Shown piece by piece: positions 43,563-51,952 of a stretch of DNA of 64,000 nucleotides. Numbering within the stretch: position 1 is the stretch's first letter; the number at the start of each line of letters is the position of its first letter. The position numbers and the translations under genes are program-made. This DNA is from Lacibacter sp. H375 (GTDB lineage: Bacteria; Bacteroidota; Bacteroidia; Chitinophagales; Chitinophagaceae). The notes beneath the pieces were generated by a model that was not told where the DNA came from, did not search any database, and saw only the letters and a program-made list of their open reading frames with translations. The stretch covers positions 2,418,001 through 2,482,000 of the forward strand of contig NZ_JBBKTT010000001.1 in the NCBI RefSeq assembly GCF_037892425.1, given 5' to 3'.

Positions 43563-44006
43563 ATGTTTATACAGAAGTATTTCGAGGAATTTAAACTCAA
43601 TGATATTCGCCAAACAAAAGGCAGAACTATCACCGAAACGGACATTGTGATCCATGCCGGTCAGTCAGGCGATTTTTTCCCCCATCATATGGACGAAGAG
43701 TGGTGCAAAAGCCAGCCGTTTAAAAAACGCATTGCACATGGTACACTCATCTTTACCGTGGCCATTGGCCTCACTGCCGATTTTGTAAACGAAGTAAGCA
43801 TGACATATGGTTATGAACGTCTCCGTTTTATTAAACCGGTATTTATTAACGATACGATCAAAGTAACAGTAACCATAAAAGAGTTGAAAGATCATAGGAA
43901 ACCCGAATACGGTTTAGTAACTGAATTGGTAGAATGTTTCAACCAGCAAAACGAATTGGTGATGCTGTGCGAACATATTCTCATGGTTAAAAAAGCAAAC
44001 AGTTAA
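43563..44006 (+). CDS. MaoC-like acyl-CoA dehydratase/hydratase
   Basis: About 147 residues from ATG 43563; a TTG at 43551 would add four residues. A single hot-dog domain. The R-hydratase signature is [14 protein letters not shown] followed by RIAHGTL: Asp37 and His42 match the catalytic pair of MaoC/PhaJ hydratases, and Asp44 the conserved follower. The family adds or removes water on a CoA-linked enoyl/3-hydroxyacyl group. No fatty-acid genes are near. It opens the cytoplasmic cassette and is followed after 2 bp by the solute-binding-like gene, then by two CoA-transferase genes that could supply its CoA ester. Confidence 0.88.
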
Positions 44007-44008
44007 GC

Positions 44009-45160
44009 ATGCAAAAGATTGTATTGAATGGTGTAACGTGGGGGCATAGCCGTGGCATAACTCCTTTGCTTGCAGTTTCACAACGTTATTCTGAATTACA
44101 TCCCGATGTGGAAATCCGTTGGAAGAAAAGAACACTCCAGGAGTTTGCTGATTTTCCTATTGAAGAACTAACAAAAGAATATGATCTGCTCATCATCGAT
44201 CATCCGTGGGTGGGTTGTGCAGATGCAACCAATTGTGTGTTGCCATTGAACGAATATTTATCTGCTGATTATTTAAGGGATCAGCAAACCAACTCGGTTG
44301 GGCTTTCGCATATCAGCTATAACTATAACAACAAACAATGGGCGTTGGCGATTGATGCGGCAACACCTGCAGCCAGCTATCGTAAAGATTTACTCAGCAA
44401 CGTGCCGCAAACATGGAACGATGTATTGGATCTTGCAAAAGAGGGAAAAGTTGCCGTGCCTGCTATTCCTATTGATCTGTTGATGAACTTTTATACATTC
44501 TGTATTGCAAATGGTGTTGAGCCTTTTCAAAGCGAGGAAGAAGTAATTGACGAAGCAACAGGCATCAAAGCAATTGAAACCATGAAGCAGTTGTATAGTG
44601 TGGTTGATAAAAAAATGTTCAGCCGTAATCCTATTGCCGTAGCAGAGTTAATGAGTACAACAAACGATTATCTCTATTGCCCGTTTGCATATGGTTATTC
44701 AAACTATGCACGCAAAGGATATGCACAGCATTTATTACACTATACCGATGTGGTTTCTTTCAACGGAAAGAAATTAAGAACAACCATTGGCGGAACAGGA
44801 ATTTCTGTTTCTGCTTTCAGCAAACATAAAGAAGTGGCAGTTGATTTTGCAGCATGGATTACATCAGCTGAATGTCAGAGTACCATGTATGTACAACACG
44901 GTGGACAACCCGGTCATCGAAGTGCGTGGACCGATACTTCAGCCAATCATTTAACCAATTACTTTTTTACGCAGGTTTTACCGGTAATGGAGAATGGATA
45001 TATGCGTCCACGTTACAATGGTTATCTGCATTTCCAGGATCATGCTGGCGATCCGTTGCAGGACTGTCTTAAAAATGATGGTGATCCTTCAAAAGCATTA
45101 CGTGAAATGAACAAACTATATCAGCAGAGTATTTCAAAACAAATTGCGGTTACAGCATGA
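44009..45160 (+). CDS. Solute-binding-protein homologue without signal peptide or ABC partner
   Basis: 383 residues with the fold features of ABC sugar-binding proteins (bacterial extracellular SBP family 1): a first strand and helix VLNGVTWGHSRGITPLL, the conserved LLIIDHPWVGCADAT, hinge-region SYRKDLLSNVPQTWNDVLDLAKEG, and a helical C-terminal part with KHKEVAVDFAAWITSAECQ. The start at 44009 follows the MaoC stop by 2 bp and no upstream in-frame start exists, and the N-terminus has no hydrophobic signal, so the protein must stay in the cytoplasm. No ABC permease or ATPase gene for it is in the locus. Role unknown: a sensor, an enzyme or a metabolite-handling protein. Confidence 0.85.
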   Translation: MQKIVLNGVTWGHSRGITPLLAVSQRYSELHPDVEIRWKKRTLQEFADFPIEELTKEYDLLIIDHPWVGCADATNCVLPLNEYLSADYLRDQQTNSVGLSHISYNYNNKQWALAIDAATPAASYRKDLLSNVPQTWNDVLDLAKEGKVAVPAIPIDLLMNFYTFCIANGVEPFQSEEEVIDEATGIKAIETMKQLYSVVDKKMFSRNPIAVAELMSTTNDYLYCPFAYGYSNYARKGYAQHLLHYTDVVSFNGKKLRTTIGGTGISVSAFSKHKEVAVDFAAWITSAECQSTMYVQHGGQPGHRSAWTDTSANHLTNYFFTQVLPVMENGYMRPRYNGYLHFQDHAGDPLQDCLKNDGDPSKALREMNKLYQQSISKQIAVTA

Positions 45161-46302
45161 GTGCATTGCCATTAAATGGAGTTGTGGTGCTGGAGTTCAG
45201 CCAGTATTTGTCCGGCCCGTCGGCGGCATTGCGTTTGGCCGATCTTGGGGCAAGGGTGATAAAAATTGAACGACCAAAAACGGGCGATGCAGGACGTAAG
45301 CTTGCTATTAAAGATCTGTGGGTTGATGATAACTCGTTGTTGTTTCATACCATCAACCGCAACAAAGAAAGTTTTACCGCTGATCTGAAGAACCCCGAAG
45401 ATATAGCGATCATTAAACAACTCATTGCAAAGAGCGATGTGTTGATCCATAATTTTCGTCCCGATGTAATGGGTAAGAACGGACTTGATTACAACACAGT
45501 ACAACAGATCAATCCACGATTGATCTATGCAGAAATTTCAGGTTACGGAAAGAAGGGTCCATGGAAAAATAAACCCGGACAAGATCTGTTATTGCAATCC
45601 ATAACAGGCTTGGCATATACCACAGGTAACGGAACAAACGGTCCTGTACCTTTTGGAATTTCGATTGCTGATATTCTTGCAGGCTCTCAATTGGTACAAG
45701 GAATATTAGGTGGATTGATCCGTCGTTCAAAAACCGGAAAAGGAGCATTGATCGAAGTGAGTTTGATGGAATCACTACTCGATTTTCAATTTGAATTACT
45801 CACTACCTATTTTACAAATAAAGAACAACCGCAACGGAGCAAGGTTGCAAACGGTCAACCGTTGTTGAGTGCGCCGTATGGAATTTATCAAACAAAAGAC
45901 AGTTATATCGCTTTAGCGATGATCGATATTCATGTGCTGGCCGATACGATTCATTGCGGTGCATTGATGCATTTTTCGAAAGAAGATGCTTTTGTATTAC
46001 GTGATGAAATAAAAACTGTGTTGGTTGAACATCTGCAAACGCAAACAACTGCTTACTGGTTGACTGCTTTGCAGGAAGCCGGGCTGTGGGCAATGGAAGT
46101 ATTGAATTGGGACGAGATGACAGACCATCCTGCATACAATGCATTGCAGATGGAACAAAGCATTCATGTAGCTGATAAAACAATTGTTACTACGAGATGC
46201 CCCATCCGCATCAACGGCAAACGATTAACGGCTGATAAACCCGCGCCGCAGTTGGGTGAGCAGAATGAGAAGATAAGAAAAGAGTTACAAGTTATAAGTT
46301 AA
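45157..46302 (+). CDS. Family III CoA-transferase (CaiB/BaiF), first copy
   Basis: 381 residues. The start overlaps the upstream stop (ATGA at 45157-45160). Family III features: VLEFSQYLSGPSAALRLADLGARVIKIERP at the N-terminus (cited by its ends EFSQYLSGP and VIKIERP), HNFRPDVMGKNGLDY, and the catalytic aspartate Asp143 in PGQDLLLQSITGL. The family moves CoA between carboxylic acids, as in oxalate, carnitine, succinate or mesaconate metabolism, through an aspartyl-CoA intermediate. A close paralogue is encoded next. The two may form a heteromer or act on different acids. The acid is unknown; a sugar acid is suggested by the neighbours. Confidence 0.92.
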   Translation: MSALPLNGVVVLEFSQYLSGPSAALRLADLGARVIKIERPKTGDAGRKLAIKDLWVDDNSLLFHTINRNKESFTADLKNPEDIAIIKQLIAKSDVLIHNFRPDVMGKNGLDYNTVQQINPRLIYAEISGYGKKGPWKNKPGQDLLLQSITGLAYTTGNGTNGPVPFGISIADILAGSQLVQGILGGLIRRSKTGKGALIEVSLMESLLDFQFELLTTYFTNKEQPQRSKVANGQPLLSAPYGIYQTKDSYIALAMIDIHVLADTIHCGALMHFSKEDAFVLRDEIKTVLVEHLQTQTTAYWLTALQEAGLWAMEVLNWDEMTDHPAYNALQMEQSIHVADKTIVTTRCPIRINGKRLTADKPAPQLGEQNEKIRKELQVIS

Positions 46303-46366
46303 GTGTTATGTGTTACGGGTGACATTAGGATTCACCATTGACCATTCACTATTCACAATTGACCAA
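46303..46366 (+). repeat. Low-complexity intergenic repeat between the CoA-transferase genes
   Basis: 64 bases with tandem, degenerate units of the form CATTGACCATTCAC and CACAATTGACC. Such sequence occurs in gaps of many bacterial genomes and looks like a mobile or slippage-derived intergenic element rather than a regulator site. Confidence 0.5.
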
Positions 46367-47536
46367 ATGAAACTTTTAGAAGACATATTAGTGATCGATT
46401 TCAGCCAGTTTTTGTCGGGGCCATCTGCGGCTTTGCGATTGGCAGATATGGGTGCACAGGTGATCAAGATCGAACGACCGGGCAGCGGCGATATTTGCCG
46501 TGAGCTCTATGTAAGTGATGTGATGATCGAAGGTGAGTCAACGATCTTTCATGCCATCAACCGCAACAAACAAAGCTATGCGGCCGATTTAAAGAACCCC
46601 AACGATCTCGAAAAAGTAAAACAACTCATTGCAAAGGCCGATGTGGTGATGCATAATTTCCGCCCTGGGGTAATGGAACGAATTGGTTTAGATTATGAAG
46701 CGGTAAAGCAGATCAAACCCGATGTGGTGTATGCAGAGATCAGTGGTTATGGTGTAGAAGGTCCGTGGAAAGATTTGCCGGGACAAGATCTTTTGCTGCA
46801 ATCCGTTTCAGGGTTAACATGGCTCAGCAATAATATTGATGAAAGTCCAACACCGATGGGTGTTGCTGTGGTGGATATCATGGCGGGCACACATATTGCA
46901 CAAGGAATATTGGCGGCACTTTATCAAAAAGCAGTAACAGGCGAAGGTTCGCTGGTGCAGGTGAGTATGCTGGAAAGTATTCTTGATTTTCAGTTTGAGG
47001 TATTGACCTGTTATTACAACGACGGGAGACAATTGCCGGTGCGTGGAGCAGTGAACAGTGCACATGCATACATTGCTGCGCCGTATGGTATTTATAAAAC
47101 AAATGATGATTACATTGCATTAGCAATGACCAATATTCCAACCCTGGCAACGCTGCTGGAATGTGAGCCGTTGAAAGATTTCATTAACAGCAACGATTGG
47201 TTTGCAAAACGTGATGAAATAAAATTGATACTGGCGGGTCATTTAACAACAAGACCATCAGCAGAGTGGCTCAGTATTTTGGAGAAGGCAGATATCTGGT
47301 GTGCACCGGTAATGGATTATGATGGTTTGGTGAAACAGGAAGGTTACCGTTCACTCGAAATGGAAGTAACGGTGAAAACAAGTAACGGACTATCGGTAAC
47401 CACTACACGCTGTCCAATAAAAGTGGATGGTGAAATACTGGGAGCAGGCAAAGGTGCACCATTGTTGGGTGAGCACAATAAGGAAATTGACTATCGATTC
47501 GGCATAACAGAACAATTGCAGACCGTTATTAAATGA
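46367..47536 (+). CDS. Family III CoA-transferase (CaiB/BaiF), second copy
   Basis: About 389 residues from ATG 46367; the earlier start at 46310 would translate the intergenic repeat. It is a clear paralogue of the preceding protein: LVIDFSQFLSGPSAALRLAD, HNFRPGVMERIGLDY and catalytic Asp141 in PGQDLLLQSVSGL are shared, and most blocks align without gaps. Differences cluster after the catalytic site (NNIDESPTPMG) and in the C-terminal domain. The divergence suggests two subunits or two substrates rather than a recent copy. It is followed after 13 bp by the lactonase gene. Confidence 0.92.
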   Translation: MKLLEDILVIDFSQFLSGPSAALRLADMGAQVIKIERPGSGDICRELYVSDVMIEGESTIFHAINRNKQSYAADLKNPNDLEKVKQLIAKADVVMHNFRPGVMERIGLDYEAVKQIKPDVVYAEISGYGVEGPWKDLPGQDLLLQSVSGLTWLSNNIDESPTPMGVAVVDIMAGTHIAQGILAALYQKAVTGEGSLVQVSMLESILDFQFEVLTCYYNDGRQLPVRGAVNSAHAYIAAPYGIYKTNDDYIALAMTNIPTLATLLECEPLKDFINSNDWFAKRDEIKLILAGHLTTRPSAEWLSILEKADIWCAPVMDYDGLVKQEGYRSLEMEVTVKTSNGLSVTTTRCPIKVDGEILGAGKGAPLLGEHNKEIDYRFGITEQLQTVIK

Positions 47537-47549
47537 TCATTTGAAAAGA

Positions 47550-48398
47550 ATGAGGCTTGCTGATACACATGTACATATCTGGGATTTTAACCGTGCAGAA
47601 TACGCATGGTTAGAAGGGAACACATCCATACTCAATCGTACGTATAGCATTGAAGAACTGGAAACCGAGCGGTTTGAAATAGGTATTAAGAAAGGTATTC
47701 TCGTACAGGCTGCTAATAATTTTGAAGATACAGATTGGATGTTGCATGTGGCGGTAAACACAGATTGGATCGCCGGTATTGTTGGATGGTTACCCTTGAT
47801 CAATCCTGATGCAACAGTAAAAGCACTGCAAAAGAAATACGGCAAAGAAAATTATTTCAAAGGTGTTCGTCATTTGATACATGATGAGCGTGATCCGGAG
47901 TGGTTGTTGCAACCGGAAGTGATCAACAGCCTGCAGATATTGGCCGATCACAATATTCCCTACGATGTAGTAGGTGTTTTACCCGAACATATTGAAACTG
48001 CATTACAGGTGGCAGCAAAAGTTCCGGAGTTAAGAATGGTGTTCGATCATTTGAATCAACCGCCAATTGCTACGAAAGAAAAATTCGGCAGATGGGGTAA
48101 GTTGATGAAAGAAGCCGCACAGCATAAAAATTTTTATGCAAAAATTTCAGGACTTGGATTAACTGCACAAAAAAATGATCAATGGACAGCCGATGATATT
48201 AAACCTTATGTTGGCTTTGCAATAGAACAGTTTGGAACCGACCGTTGTTTCATGGGCGGCGATTGGCCCGTTTCATTATTGGCCGGTTCTTACAGCAACA
48301 CCTGGAAAAACTTCAAAGAAGTAATTCACGATTTGGTTGATGATAAAGCAGCAGATAAAATATTTTATTCCAACGCTGCAAACTTTTATTCCTTTTAA
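47550..48398 (+). CDS. Amidohydrolase family 2 protein, COG3618-type sugar lactonase
   Basis: About 282 residues from ATG 47550. Features of the COG3618 lactonase group: N-terminal metal motif DTHVHIWD, internal FKGVRHLIHDERD with a conserved His, MVFDHLNQPP, and the C-terminal MGGDWPVSLLAGSY with the catalytic aspartate. Studied members hydrolyse L-fucono-1,5-lactone, L-rhamnono-lactone, galactaro-lactone or 2-pyrone-4,6-dicarboxylate. Next to a RhaT-like transporter and an oxidoreductase, a deoxy-sugar lactone is the best guess. This would give an aldonate as the acid for the CoA-transferases. Confidence 0.88.
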   Translation: MRLADTHVHIWDFNRAEYAWLEGNTSILNRTYSIEELETERFEIGIKKGILVQAANNFEDTDWMLHVAVNTDWIAGIVGWLPLINPDATVKALQKKYGKENYFKGVRHLIHDERDPEWLLQPEVINSLQILADHNIPYDVVGVLPEHIETALQVAAKVPELRMVFDHLNQPPIATKEKFGRWGKLMKEAAQHKNFYAKISGLGLTAQKNDQWTADDIKPYVGFAIEQFGTDRCFMGGDWPVSLLAGSYSNTWKNFKEVIHDLVDDKAADKIFYSNAANFYSF

Positions 48399-48415
48399 CC
48401 CATCTGCAAAAGAAT

Positions 48416-49453
48416 ATGGAAGTAATTAACGGAGTTTTATTTCATGCTGTCGGCGCTTCAAGCGCATCGCTCTGTTATACACCACAGCGAAAAGTGAAAG
48501 GATGGAGCTGGCAAACGTATTGGCTGGCACAGGCAGCAGTATGTTGGTTGCTATTACCCTTGCTCGTTGCATACATTACCATTCCTGAAATTGTTACCGT
48601 ATTAAAAGAAGCACCTGCTTCTGCCATGCAACGTTCGTTCCTGTTGGGCATTGCTTATGGTGTTGGTGGAACTGCATTTGGTATTGCCATCCGTTATGTT
48701 GGTTTTTCATTGACCTATGCAATTTCTGTTGGTATCAGTTGTGTGTTGGGTACGTTGTTACCACCATTGGTAGCCGGAACATTAGGGACTATACTTTCAG
48801 GAACAGGTGCAGGTTATCTCATTAGTGGAGTTAGCATGGGTGCAATTGGTATTGCAGTGTGTGGTTTGGCAGGGAGAAGTAAAGAAAAAGACATTGAAAA
48901 GCAGTTGAAGACAGAATCTGCTTTCTCCTTAGCGAAAGGATTACCACTTTGTTTATTGGCGGGTGTGTTATCTGCATTGTATGGTTTCTCGTTAAATCAG
49001 GGTCAACCCATTGCAGATGTGGCTGCTAAATATGGAGCAGGGAATTTCCAGGGAAATGTGATCTATATTTTTTCTAATTCAGGTGCATTCATCAGTACCT
49101 TGTTATATTGTTTGTATCTGCATCGAAAAGAAAAAACATTTGGCGAGTATAAAACAACAGGCGAGAGTGGATTGGGAATGAATTATCTCATGTCGATCTT
49201 AACAGGCATGCTATGGTACGGACAATTTTTCTTTTATGGACTTGGTCATGTACGCATGGGCAAATATGAGTTCAGTAGTTGGGCCATTCATATGATCTTA
49301 CTGGTGTTGTTAAGTGCAGTTACAGGCTTGATGTTGAAAGAATGGAAAAGCAGTAGCGGCAAAACAATTCGTTTATTGGTAATAGCCATTGTTATATTGA
49401 TTGTTGCCGTTTTATTATTAACACAAGGAAACAAACTGGGAGCAGTCGAGTAA
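48416..49453 (+). CDS. RhaT-like L-rhamnose/proton symporter family protein
   Basis: 345 residues with ten predicted membrane helices. Family traits are the opening GVLFHAVGASSASLCYTPQRKVKGWSW, here cited by its ends GVLFHAVGAS and KGWSW, the GFSLNQGQPIADVAAKYGAG segment, and LWYGQFFFYGLGHVRMG in the second half. RhaT imports L-rhamnose, and related proteins import L-fucose-like deoxy sugars. Here it should bring a sugar released by the periplasmic enzymes across the inner membrane. Spacing of 16-17 bp on both sides puts it firmly in the cassette. Confidence 0.9.
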   Translation: MEVINGVLFHAVGASSASLCYTPQRKVKGWSWQTYWLAQAAVCWLLLPLLVAYITIPEIVTVLKEAPASAMQRSFLLGIAYGVGGTAFGIAIRYVGFSLTYAISVGISCVLGTLLPPLVAGTLGTILSGTGAGYLISGVSMGAIGIAVCGLAGRSKEKDIEKQLKTESAFSLAKGLPLCLLAGVLSALYGFSLNQGQPIADVAAKYGAGNFQGNVIYIFSNSGAFISTLLYCLYLHRKEKTFGEYKTTGESGLGMNYLMSILTGMLWYGQFFFYGLGHVRMGKYEFSSWAIHMILLVLLSAVTGLMLKEWKSSSGKTIRLLVIAIVILIVAVLLLTQGNKLGAVE

Positions 49454-49469
49454 AAATTGAGAAGTTGAA

Positions 49470-50540
49470 ATGACGAATCATCAAAGAGATATCGCTTCTG
49501 CACAATTACCAATTTATATTATTGGTGCAGGCGGCATTGTCAATACGGCACACCTGCCTGCTTATATGCTGGGTGGTTTTCATGTGCAGGGTATTTGTGA
49601 TATTGATCCGGATAAAGCAAAAACAACCGCTGAACGTTTTGGTATAAAAGAAGTATTTGAAAGTCCGGAAGAGTTGTTGAAGCAATTACCGGCAAATGCG
49701 ATCATTGATATTGCAGTGCCCGGTCCTGCATTGATTCCTTTGTTGGAACAAATACCGAATGGCTCTGCTGTATTGTTGCAAAAGCCGATGGGTGAAGATC
49801 TGGATGCAGCGAAGAAAATTTTAGCGATCTGCAAGGAGAAGAAGTTGAATGCGGCTGTTAATTTTCAATTACGTTACGCACCGTACATTCTTGAAGTGAA
49901 ACAAATGATCAGTGATGGGTTGCTTGGTGAGATCAACGATATTGAAGTAAACGTCAACGTTTACACACCATGGCATTTGTGGGATTTCTTAATGACATCA
50001 CCAAGAGTAGAGATTCTCTATCACAGTATTCATTACATTGATCTTGTTCGTCATATACTTGGTAATCCGGTATCCGTGTACGCCAAATCAACAAAGCATC
50101 CGAGTATGCCTGCGCTTGCATCGGTACGCAGCAATATCATTATGGATTATGGTGATATGACAAGAGCAAATATTCTCACCAATCATTGTCATAATTACGG
50201 TACACCCAAACAACAATCCTATATCAAATTCGAAGGAACGAAAGGTGCAGTGCTCATCAACTTTGGTGCACTCATCAATTATCCACGTGGCGAAGCAGAT
50301 AATTTTGAATATGTGTTTTTAGAGGAAGGCAAAGAACCACAATGGCAGGAAAAGAAAATTGAAGGCAGTTGGTTTCCACATGCATTTATTGGCAGTATGG
50401 AACAGTTAATGCTGGCGGCTGCAGGAAAAATTGAAAAACCTGATAATGCTGTGGAAGATTGCATTCATACCATGGCATGTACGGAAGCAGCATATATCAG
50501 TTGTGAAAAAGGTGGCATCAAGCCAAATGAATTGCTTTAA
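49470..50540 (+). CDS. Gfo/Idh/MocA-family NAD(P)-dependent oxidoreductase
   Basis: 356 residues. The Rossmann motif is IIGAGGIVNTAHLPAYML, followed by VQGICDIDPDKAKTTAERFG. The usual EKP signature reads LQKPMGEDLDAAK, so the glutamate is Gln and the catalytic lysine is kept. The C-terminal alpha/beta domain contains YHSIHYIDLVRHILG. The family oxidises sugars, inositols or sugar lactone precursors at one hydroxyl. In this cassette it is the best candidate for oxidising the imported sugar to the lactone. Confidence 0.88.
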   Translation: MTNHQRDIASAQLPIYIIGAGGIVNTAHLPAYMLGGFHVQGICDIDPDKAKTTAERFGIKEVFESPEELLKQLPANAIIDIAVPGPALIPLLEQIPNGSAVLLQKPMGEDLDAAKKILAICKEKKLNAAVNFQLRYAPYILEVKQMISDGLLGEINDIEVNVNVYTPWHLWDFLMTSPRVEILYHSIHYIDLVRHILGNPVSVYAKSTKHPSMPALASVRSNIIMDYGDMTRANILTNHCHNYGTPKQQSYIKFEGTKGAVLINFGALINYPRGEADNFEYVFLEEGKEPQWQEKKIEGSWFPHAFIGSMEQLMLAAAGKIEKPDNAVEDCIHTMACTEAAYISCEKGGIKPNELL

Positions 50541-50560
50541 TTTTTTAAGAACGAATCGTG

Positions 50561-51952
50561 ATGAAGAAACAATCAGTGATCATAATTGCATGTTTATTTT
50601 TTGCTCAATATGTAGTGTCGCAGCAAATAGCTTTTCCCGGTGCAGAAGGTTTCGGCAAATATGCAACAGGTGGAAGAGGAGGAAAAGTTGTTGCAGTAAC
50701 CAATCTCAACGATAGTGGCGAAGGAAGTTTCCGCTGGGCATTGGAACAATTTCCCGGCGAAGCATTAACGGTGATCTTCCGTGTATCCGGTATTATCGAA
50801 CTGAAATCGAAGATCCAGATCAAACGTTCCAATTTAACCATTGCCGGACAAACAGCTCCCGGTGATGGTATCTGTTTAAAAAATCAGTCACTCATTTTAA
50901 ATGGTGCTTCTTCAAAAGGCAATCATGGTAATATCATTATCCGTTATATCCGTTCACGCCCAGGTGGTACATTGAAAACAGGATTGTATGGCTTTGATAT
51001 GGAGAACTGTCATGATGTAATTGTTGATCATTGTAGTTTCAGTTGGGCCAACGAAGAATGTGCAGCTATGTACGATACAAAAAATGTTACTGTACAATGG
51101 TGTATCGTAAGTGAAGGTTTGTATGAAGCAGGTCATCAGAAAGGGCATCGTTCATATGGTGGTGTGTGGGGCGGACAATACGCAAGCTATCATCATAATT
51201 TATTGGCGCATCTCAACAGTCGTGCAGTACGGTTCAATGGTGCACGGGCACATGATACAGTTGCATTGATCGATTACCGCAACAATGTTATTTACAATTG
51301 GGGCAATGCCAATGCTGCTTATGGCGGCGAAGTAAATATTGCAGGTGGCGTATCACAAGTGAACATTGTGAACAATTATTACAAGCCAGGTCCGGCAACT
51401 GCTGCTGAATTGAAATTTGTCAATGCTTCTTATCAGAAAGAAGTCAGCAAAGGAACAGGGCAGTGGTTTGTTGATGGCAACATCATGGAAGGCGATAAAG
51501 CATTGACCAAAAAGAATAAGAACGGTGTTGATCTGCAAGCACAAGGCTATCCTTCAGGTGCAATTTCTGAAAAAGCATTTCCAGTTTCTGTTGCACTACC
51601 TGTTGAAACAGCAAAAGAATCATACGAGAAGGTTTTGAAATATGCAGGCGCCATTTTTCCAAAACGTGATGCAACTGATGAACGTGTATTGAACGAAACA
51701 AGAACAGGTACAGCAACCGGCAAAGGAGTATTTGGTAAGCCGGGAATTATTGATAGTCCGTTTGCAGTTGGTGGTTGGGCCGAATATAAATCTGCTTCTG
51801 CACCTATTGATACAGATAATGATGGTATGCCTGATGCATGGGAAACAAAAAAAGGATTGAACCCAAATGATGCGAACGACTGCAACAAAGTAGATGCAAG
51901 TGGTTATACCATGCTGGAAATTTATTTAAACGAATTAGTGCAAGTGAATTAA
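50561..51952 (+). CDS. Secreted pectate lyase-like enzyme (PL1 fold)
   Basis: About 463 residues; ATG 50561 is preferred over GTG 50558. The signal peptide ends near VVSQQ. The parallel beta-helix starts with FPGAEGFGKYATGGRGG and VTNLNDSGEGSFRWAL, the standard opening of Bacteroidota PL1 lyases, and contains the ladder strands IIIRYIRSRPGG, VDHCSFSWANEE, and VRFNGARAHD. The C-terminus carries a calcium-binding repeat DTDNDGMPDAWE followed by GLNPNDANDCNK. It should cleave homogalacturonan by beta-elimination in the periplasm or at the surface. The next gene starts 1 bp later. Confidence 0.88.
   Translation: MKKQSVIIIACLFFAQYVVSQQIAFPGAEGFGKYATGGRGGKVVAVTNLNDSGEGSFRWALEQFPGEALTVIFRVSGIIELKSKIQIKRSNLTIAGQTAPGDGICLKNQSLILNGASSKGNHGNIIIRYIRSRPGGTLKTGLYGFDMENCHDVIVDHCSFSWANEECAAMYDTKNVTVQWCIVSEGLYEAGHQKGHRSYGGVWGGQYASYHHNLLAHLNSRAVRFNGARAHDTVALIDYRNNVIYNWGNANAAYGGEVNIAGGVSQVNIVNNYYKPGPATAAELKFVNASYQKEVSKGTGQWFVDGNIMEGDKALTKKNKNGVDLQAQGYPSGAISEKAFPVSVALPVETAKESYEKVLKYAGAIFPKRDATDERVLNETRTGTATGKGVFGKPGIIDSPFAVGGWAEYKSASAPIDTDNDGMPDAWETKKGLNPNDANDCNKVDASGYTMLEIYLNELVQVN

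Follow-up and report, generated by a model that had tools for sequence, protein, structure and literature searches.

The window analysed here, a stretch of 64,000 nucleotides from the soil bacterium Lacibacter sp. H375 (G000:C1:2418001-2482000; genome size 5.08 Mb), holds at positions 43563-50540 a block of seven genes. They encode a MaoC-like hydratase (MaoC-a), a cytosolic homologue of sugar ABC solute-binding proteins (SBP1), two family III CoA-transferase subunits (CoT1 and CoT2), an amidohydrolase_2 protein (AH2), a RhaT-family symporter and a Gfo/Idh/MocA oxidoreductase (Gfo). The results support the view that the CoA-transferases, the hydratase and the solute-binding protein (SBP) are one conserved unit. 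We tentatively read the block as a copy of a conserved CoA-dependent module for a fucose-like 6-deoxy-sugar from rhamnogalacturonan II (RG-II)-type pectin, and put the chances of this reading a little short of even. It starts from what is observed, namely the genes, their linkage, conserved motifs, a gene fusion and the co-occurrence with a hydrolase. The CoA genes of the original prediction, made from the letters of this stretch, stood as a conserved unit accompanied by fucose-type and pectin genes, but not as a replacement for a missing dehydratase.

Conservation of the transferase, hydratase and SBP genes

All seven open reading frames (ORFs) are undamaged, lie on the plus strand and start with ATG, and their spacing ranges from a 4-bp overlap to 64 bp, in agreement with the gaps of at most 64 bp first described. 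SBP1 matches were found in 18 of 99 relatives, 16 of them at a minimum of 50% identity, and strong matches in 19 of the 395 genomes of the phylum; from a scan of named genomes, the best 80 of at least 550 confirmed relatives were retained. The neighbourhood set comprised 90 distinct SBP1 genes in 89 loci with at least 4 kb of sequence on either side. Family III CoA-transferase genes lay within 10 kb of 87 of the 90 (86 clustered and one fused), the exceptions being L074, L118 and L125. A MaoC or crotonase hydratase was present in all 87 CoT-positive neighbourhoods, six of the MaoC genes being recovered solely by tblastn after greedy ORF calling had hidden them. The module occurs in Bacteroidota, Pseudomonadota and Firmicutes, mostly next to fucose, pectin or sugar-transport genes. 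The gene order, whose conservation had been proposed as a check, recurs across phyla, and because of this the arrangement is far beyond chance.

The cohesion of the unit is also seen in its sequences. In one genome (L055), CoT1 and CoT2 are fused into one gene, from which we infer that they form one enzyme. Over 72 loci, the pairwise distances of SBP1 correlated with those of each CoT at 0.94 and those of CoT1 with CoT2 at 0.95; the values were 0.73-0.83 for these three against MaoC or Gfo and 0.88 for MaoC against Gfo, all of them mirror-tree values that increase with shared ancestry. At the locus of Flavobacterium G298 (L285), SBP1, CoT1, CoT2, the second cytosolic SBP described below (SBP2) and MaoC are missing altogether, with Gfo and FucP still in place beside a fucose operon; Gfo normally sits between SBP2 and MaoC, that is, between the genes lost on either side. 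The absence of CoT and MaoC refers to this locus, and SBP1 was unreported in G298 by the phylum scan.

The architecture varies between lineages. The order of the window, MaoC-SBP1-CoT1-CoT2-AH2-RhaT-Gfo, is one variant. In another, SBP1-CoT1-CoT2-SBP2-Gfo-MaoC followed by FucP or RhaT, SBP2 replaces AH2. The 113 loci compared for this (L048-L080 and L096-L175, with a few genomes represented twice) include 47 with AH2 and 40 with SBP2, and none with both. A third variant, SBP1-CoT1-CoT2-crotonase-aldehyde dehydrogenase, occupies nine loci in eight genomes, several of them of marine bacteria; neither MaoC nor Gfo was found in about 20 kb at these nine, and the one aldehyde dehydrogenase scored is AldA-like, at 494.7 bits just below the cut-off of 500. 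Firmicutes have a single CoT with MaoC and Gfo, in some cases with SBP2. In annotated alphaproteobacterial records, CaiB-SBP, MaoC and Gfo lie in regions with an ABC importer, a mutarotase, a lactonase, an SDR and a FAH hydrolase. In Sinorhizobium medicae, the CaiB-SBP pair lies about 10 kb from the fucose-type operon, which has an annotated L-fuconate dehydratase.

Travel with unrelated pathways, which the original prediction had named as evidence against itself, was the exception to mostly fucose-type or pectin company: one S. meliloti strain has the CaiB-SBP pair between conjugation and insertion-sequence (IS) genes, Jannaschia has it in a TRAP-transporter/crotonase setting, and in Roseibium an aromatic-type cluster with a thiolase and an AMP-binding gene adjoins the cassette on the opposite strand. 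As a side observation, SBP1 genes without CoTs at L117, L118, L125 and L074 stand beside MR_MLE-like, UxuA-like and RraA-like genes or an apparent rhamnose operon; they may represent a second use of the cytosolic SBP.

The seven family names were upheld by Pfam (see the table). CoT1 and CoT2 both align to PF02515 over the entire model (1-366 of 366). The motif GQD is present in 102 of 102 relatives of CoT1 and G[QLF]D in 105 of 105 relatives of CoT2 (duplicates counted in these and the following relative counts); the Asp of this region aligns to YfdE and is presumably the active-site residue of family III CoA-transferases. All 86 relatives of MaoC-a carry GD[FY][FY]PHH, and we take the Asp/His pair of the MaoC domain to be catalytic. 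The nearest solved chain to MaoC-a, 4ffu (E 2.4e-47), is deposited merely as 'oxidase' and presumably comes from Sinorhizobium meliloti; MaoC-a is, we assume, also related to NodN. In these searches, the MaoC query was one codon short, and the CoT2 query for structural relatives began two codons upstream of the likely start.

The AlphaFold model of SBP1 (pLDDT 95.1) superposes at a TM of about 0.8 on maltose, trehalose and sulfoquinovosyl-glycerol SBPs, and the alignment of the family has numerous invariant polar residues. By a crude hydropathy test, none of 118 SBP1 sequences has a strongly hydrophobic N-terminus: the maximum was 1.38 (n=118; 30 residues, from 7 before a conserved motif) versus 2.1-2.9 in four presumed exported proteins of the window (40 residues). 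By this test, the N-terminus of SBP1 has no signal-peptide-like character, in agreement with the cytoplasmic location first given. Among the seven window genes there is no ABC permease or ATPase gene, RhaT being present instead; rhizobial loci do encode an ABC importer, a separate one that comes with an SBP of its own. Of all parts of the module, the cytosolic SBPs are the most interesting and have the least understood function.

The names given to the lactonase and the symporter hold at the family level (PF04909 and PF06379), but the equivalog cut-offs were not reached: AH2 scored 141.5 bits against the L-fucono-1,5-lactonase model (cut-off 400) and RhaT 314 bits against its best model (cut-off 468). 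Gfo relatives share the tripeptide QKP (93) or EKP (1) in 94 of 94 sequences; PDB sequence relatives of Gfo were too distant to guide its assignment.

Fucose-type genes, a candidate route and the pectin locus

Genomes that carry the cassette nearly always encode a FAH-family hydrolase, the 2,4-diketo-3-deoxy-sugar-acid hydrolase with which the oxidative L-fucose/L-rhamnose route ends. Among the relatives, it was found in 15 of 16 carriers versus 19 of 83 non-carriers (p 1e-7), and in the phylum sample in 16 of 19 versus 53 of 376 (p 1e-10); these statistics treat genomes as independent points and ignore phylogeny and genome size. Carriers were defined by SBP1 at about 48% identity at least, so that G058 and G029 counted as non-carriers, and 12 weaker FAH matches were left out of the phylum set. 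Within the genus of the window, the hydrolase was present in 7/7 carriers and 0/7 others. The FAH gene of the window genome (G000:C1:4024359-4025201) lies with an SDR gene in a fucose operon at C1:4.02 Mb (L222), and its product is 69% identical to that of G306, which at 342 bits is below the diketo-deoxy-acid hydrolase cut-off of 500. The same operon encodes AH2b, a lactonase-like protein with 56% identity to its Flavobacterium counterpart.

In G306, the cassette and the hydrolase gene stand together: a single strand carries, in this order, RhaM (mutarotase), MaoC-a, SBP1, CoT1, CoT2, AH2, RhaT, Gfo, a second MaoC type (MaoC-b), SDR and FAH, and neither an MR_MLE nor a UxaA gene interrupts the run from the mutarotase to FAH. 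After this run come sugar-acid genes with a galactonate-dehydratase-like gene (309.6 bits versus 311). An operon facing the Flavobacterium cassette encodes an L-fucose dehydrogenase that exceeds its model cut-off (354 versus 300, scored in L076). The cassette itself includes FucP; scored in L078, it exceeds the cut-off of one model (354 versus 280.4) and falls below that of a second (320 versus 427). The AH2b-type lactonase scores 262 bits versus the fucono-lactonase cut-off of 400. An isomerase census of 37 genomes, which found RhaA in one and Fucose_iso_C in 17 (15 over the cut-off), says little because RhaI-type isomerases were outside its coverage.

A CoA-activated elimination on a fucose-like sugar acid, feeding the fucose lower pathway, is plausible and the best-supported reading; we infer every CoA step, the order of the steps and the substrate. 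By family, RhaT would import the sugar, Gfo would oxidise its C1 and AH2 would open the lactone. The CoT1/CoT2 pair would then transfer CoA to the sugar acid, probably with SBP1 binding the acid or acyl group for the transferase, and the MaoC protein would eliminate the beta-substituent, either water or an O-substituent such as methoxy. The product would be the enol of a 2-keto-3-deoxy-acyl-CoA; in the manner of the carnitine CaiB/CaiD cycle, CoT would then recover its CoA for a further molecule of sugar acid. The SDR would oxidise the free 2-keto-3-deoxy acid, and the FAH-family hydrolase would split the resulting compound into pyruvate and L-lactate. In the window genome, the separate importer, dehydrogenase and lactonase beside an already existing fucose set speak for a substrate different from plain L-fucose, and the RG-II setting hints at deoxy-sugars that are methylated or branched.

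The cassette appears to be embedded in a pectin locus of the RG-II type. The pectate-lyase-like gene after Gfo, first labelled PL1, has no Pfam match above the cut-off; in near relatives, such a gene immediately follows Gfo in nine other loci (L051 and L096 being one genome). The 882-aa ORF, left unnamed in the original prediction, matches BPa0997 (6hzf), presumably a GH138 enzyme active on RG-II, and has relatives at 20 further loci (two of them, L066 and L124, from the same genome). Downstream of it, the window contains GH28, GH95 and a GH2/malectin protein, and the 40 kb beyond the window contain GH78, GH2, an apiosidase-like protein, a BT_1020-like propeller protein and DUF6298. According to PMC12282258, 2-O-methyl-fucose is a constituent of RG-II, and the fucosidase families include GH29, GH95 and GH141. 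At L150:4764-7271, a GH141-type protein has a C-terminal L-rhamnose mutarotase-like domain.

Features of the seven-gene block and the two genes that follow it
Feature	Coordinates	Strand	Family or best match
MaoC-a, MaoC-like hydratase/dehydratase	43563..44006	+	PF01575, 83 bits; motif GDFFPHH
SBP1, cytosolic homologue of sugar ABC solute-binding proteins	44009..45160	+	PF01547
CoT1, family III CoA-transferase subunit	45157..46302	+	PF02515, 319.7 bits
CoT2, family III CoA-transferase subunit	46367..47536	+	PF02515, 325.9 bits
AH2, amidohydrolase_2, probable sugar lactonase	47541..48398 (alternative ATG 47550)	+	PF04909, 133 bits
RhaT-family sugar:proton symporter	48416..49453	+	PF06379, 196 bits
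Gfo/Idh/MocA oxidoreductase, probable sugar dehydrogenase	49470..50540	+	PF01408 and C-terminal domains
Pectate-lyase-like protein	50558..51952	+	No Pfam family above cut-off; directly 3' of Gfo
GH138-type enzyme, 882 aa	51954..54602	+	BPa0997 (PDB 6hzf/6hze), E 6e-298

To the right of the window, L186:2105-6926 holds isomerase-like, split transketolase and FGGY kinase genes. A reading of these as an apiose set was weak: the kinase scores as glycerol kinase (591 bits versus a subfamily cut-off of 498), and the isomerase weakly matches sulfoquinovose isomerase. Two further genomes of the genus (L050 and L096) have relatives of the transketolase and the kinase on the upstream side of the cassette, and in G001 the isomerase accompanies them.

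The dehydratase question and competing readings

The statement that an enolase-superfamily dehydratase is absent held for the seven-gene block, where no MR_MLE, IlvD or UxaA gene was found, but not for the genome, which has further MR_MLE genes, one of a sugar-acid type. An MR_MLE gene of the genome adjoins an AraD1-type gene. The sole UxaA gene of the genome is in an apparent hexuronate operon. The fucose operon of the window genome is without the AraC-like regulator and UxaA-type dehydratase present in L220, L221, L229 and L243; the UxaA-type gene occupies the fucose-operon site in G001, G003, G009 and G010, is missing in G013, and G004 is unreadable there. Several relatives have a UxaA-type dehydratase in a separate fucose operon. 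Each of the Flavobacterium genomes G314, G404, G262, G121, G412 and G431 has three MR_MLE matches with similar scores, which in G262 are MenC-like, epimerase-like and enolase-like. Five of these six have two UxaA genes, one of them beside a FAH gene.

The proposal that aldonate dehydratases are missing where the cassette is present did not survive this comparison. Of the cassette-positive loci, 13 of 28 have a dehydratase next to FAH, versus 14 of 40 cassette-negative ones, that is, about equally often, and complementarity was dropped. G298, although free of the cassette, is equally poor in MR_MLE and UxaA genes. The 40 loci are a fetched subset that includes G058 (L064, with a 36% SBP1 variant) and G029 (a weak match). 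One FAH locus per genome was used and, in genomes with two FAH genes (G306, G314, G404, G262 and G412), it was the one distant from the cassette; therefore, the count of 13/28 leans upward. The dehydratase gap is real in places, without showing that the cassette fills it, and the replacement of a missing dehydratase by the cassette is not secured.

Several observations weigh against a CoA-dependent module of the proposed kind. Rhizobial and alphaproteobacterial fucose regions hold both the cassette genes and an annotated L-fuconate dehydratase; therefore, the CoA step is not simply a substitute for a missing dehydratase there. The cassette-negative G298 has a fucose operon with one UxaA gene in the genome, and its MR_MLE matches are limited to two of epimerase/MenC score and size. 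The dependence of the distance correlations on shared ancestry and the neglect of phylogeny and genome size in the co-occurrence tests count here as well, as do the carriers without a FAH hydrolase (G038, G199 and G246; G376 at 43% only). SBP1 also occurs without CoTs, near a rhamnose-like operon in L074 and at L117, L118 and L125, and a 2-oxo-acyl-CoA intermediate would be unusual.

The form first proposed, in which the cassette is an alternative CoA-dependent L-fuconate dehydratase for ordinary L-fucose, appears unlikely. It would fit Flavobacterium G431, G117 and G294, where a fucose dehydrogenase, a lactonase, an SDR and FAH lie beside the cassette. In G431, two MR_MLE proteins resemble the MenC and epimerase proteins of G262 and one is at enolase level, and there are one IlvD-type and one UxaA gene, the latter in an apparent hexuronate operon. 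The missing UxaA-type gene in the fucose operons of the window genome and G013 would fit too. However, the cassette brings its own importer, dehydrogenase and lactonase beside the fucose set, G306 holds a UxaA-type set together with the cassette set, the rhizobia have their fuconate dehydratase, and a further MR_MLE gene of G117 encodes a Tat-like signal. Fucose operons can lack both the cassette and a neighbouring dehydratase (G298, G210 and G169 among others).

That the cassette serves a rarer fucose-like sugar, such as 2-O-methyl-L-fucose, another O-methyl-deoxysugar or L-aceric acid, which would enter the same lower pathway after CoA-assisted elimination, is a somewhat better candidate, although we still consider it doubtful. 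The GH138-type, apiosidase-like, BT_1020-like and GH95 genes of the RG-II-type locus agree with it, as do the separate importer, dehydrogenase and lactonase, the two MaoC types in G306 and rhizobia, and the occurrence of 2-O-methyl-fucose in RG-II (PMC12282258). By sequence resemblance, the window genome also appears to have an L-rhamnose isomerase/kinase set already, in addition to its fucose genes. Marine and rhizobial carriers, though, are unlikely RG-II degraders, and chemistry on a 2-O-methyl acyl-CoA is speculative. Action of the CoA genes on C3 products (lactate, lactaldehyde) or another short acid seems improbable. The AldA-like aldehyde dehydrogenase of the crotonase variant, lactate-utilisation-like genes near rhamnose and fucose genes, the thiolase and AMP-binding gene in the oppositely oriented Roseibium cluster and, presumably, the activity of family III transferases on small acids would be in line with it, but SBP1 has a sugar-binding fold, and the annotated records name neither an acyl-CoA dehydrogenase nor a thiolase inside their cassette gene runs. 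An unrelated acyl-CoA operon inserted into the pectin locus by chance is hardly credible: MaoC and CaiB families are presumably common and promiscuous, and the Sinorhizobium pair near IS and conjugation genes and the Jannaschia pair with a TRAP transporter would fit it, but the conserved gene order has largely refuted this idea, and in Bacteroidota, Alphaproteobacteria and Paenibacillus alike the module has genes for fucose, pectin or sugar transport as neighbours.

Relation to known systems

The broadest form of the CoA-dependent module would be a CoA-thioester elimination on sugar acids in at least three phyla, in which cytosolic sugar-SBP-fold proteins act as substrate-binding partners of a two-subunit CoT and a MaoC or crotonase lyase, and which would give rare deoxy- or O-methyl sugars access to the lower pathway of fucose. 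This is possible, with the chances leaning against it. To our knowledge, aldonates are degraded as free acids or phosphates, and no description of CoA steps in sugar-acid catabolism was found in the open-licence papers searched. If true, a route through thioesters would be a novelty in carbohydrate chemistry. Many MaoC, CaiB and 'extracellular solute-binding' genes of soil, rhizosphere and marine bacteria, annotated by family alone, would gain a function, the less-studied RG-II sugars a testable entry and SBP-fold proteins an intracellular role.

An OiaX-like RuBisCO-like protein and an OiaK-like kinase are encoded near the cassette at L132, L138, L144, L147, L152, L155, L157, L168 and L175. 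These nine loci belong to Bacteroidota and Paenibacillus, and eight of them also have an Asp/Glu-racemase-like gene. This resemblance to the D-apiose OiaK/OiaX pathway concerns 9 of 121 loci and neighbours only, and the one protein of each kind that was scored stays below its model cut-off (458 and 405 bits versus 700).

The oxidative (non-phosphorylative) L-fucose/L-rhamnose pathway shares with the proposed system an importer, a C1 dehydrogenase, an amidohydrolase_2 lactonase, an SDR and a FAH-family hydrolase. The seven window genes differ from it in having no enolase-type or UxaA-type dehydratase, and the cassette adds CoA-transferases, a hydratase and one or two cytosolic SBPs. Two paralogous subunits encoded side by side, such as CoT1 and CoT2, are known from the two-subunit family III CoA-transferases SmtAB of Chloroflexus and BbsEF of Aromatoleum, and the benzylsuccinate CoA-transferase subunit 9fn0 was among the structure matches of the CoT searches. 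Those enzymes act on other substrates, whereas the cassette keeps the motif Asp in both CoT1 and CoT2. In carnitine metabolism, the family III CoA-transferase CaiB and the hydratase CaiD dehydrate a hydroxy acid with catalytic CoA. The cassette likewise pairs a family III CoA-transferase with a hydratase, but it has two transferase genes, usually MaoC in place of a crotonase, a sugar-locus context and an SBP partner.

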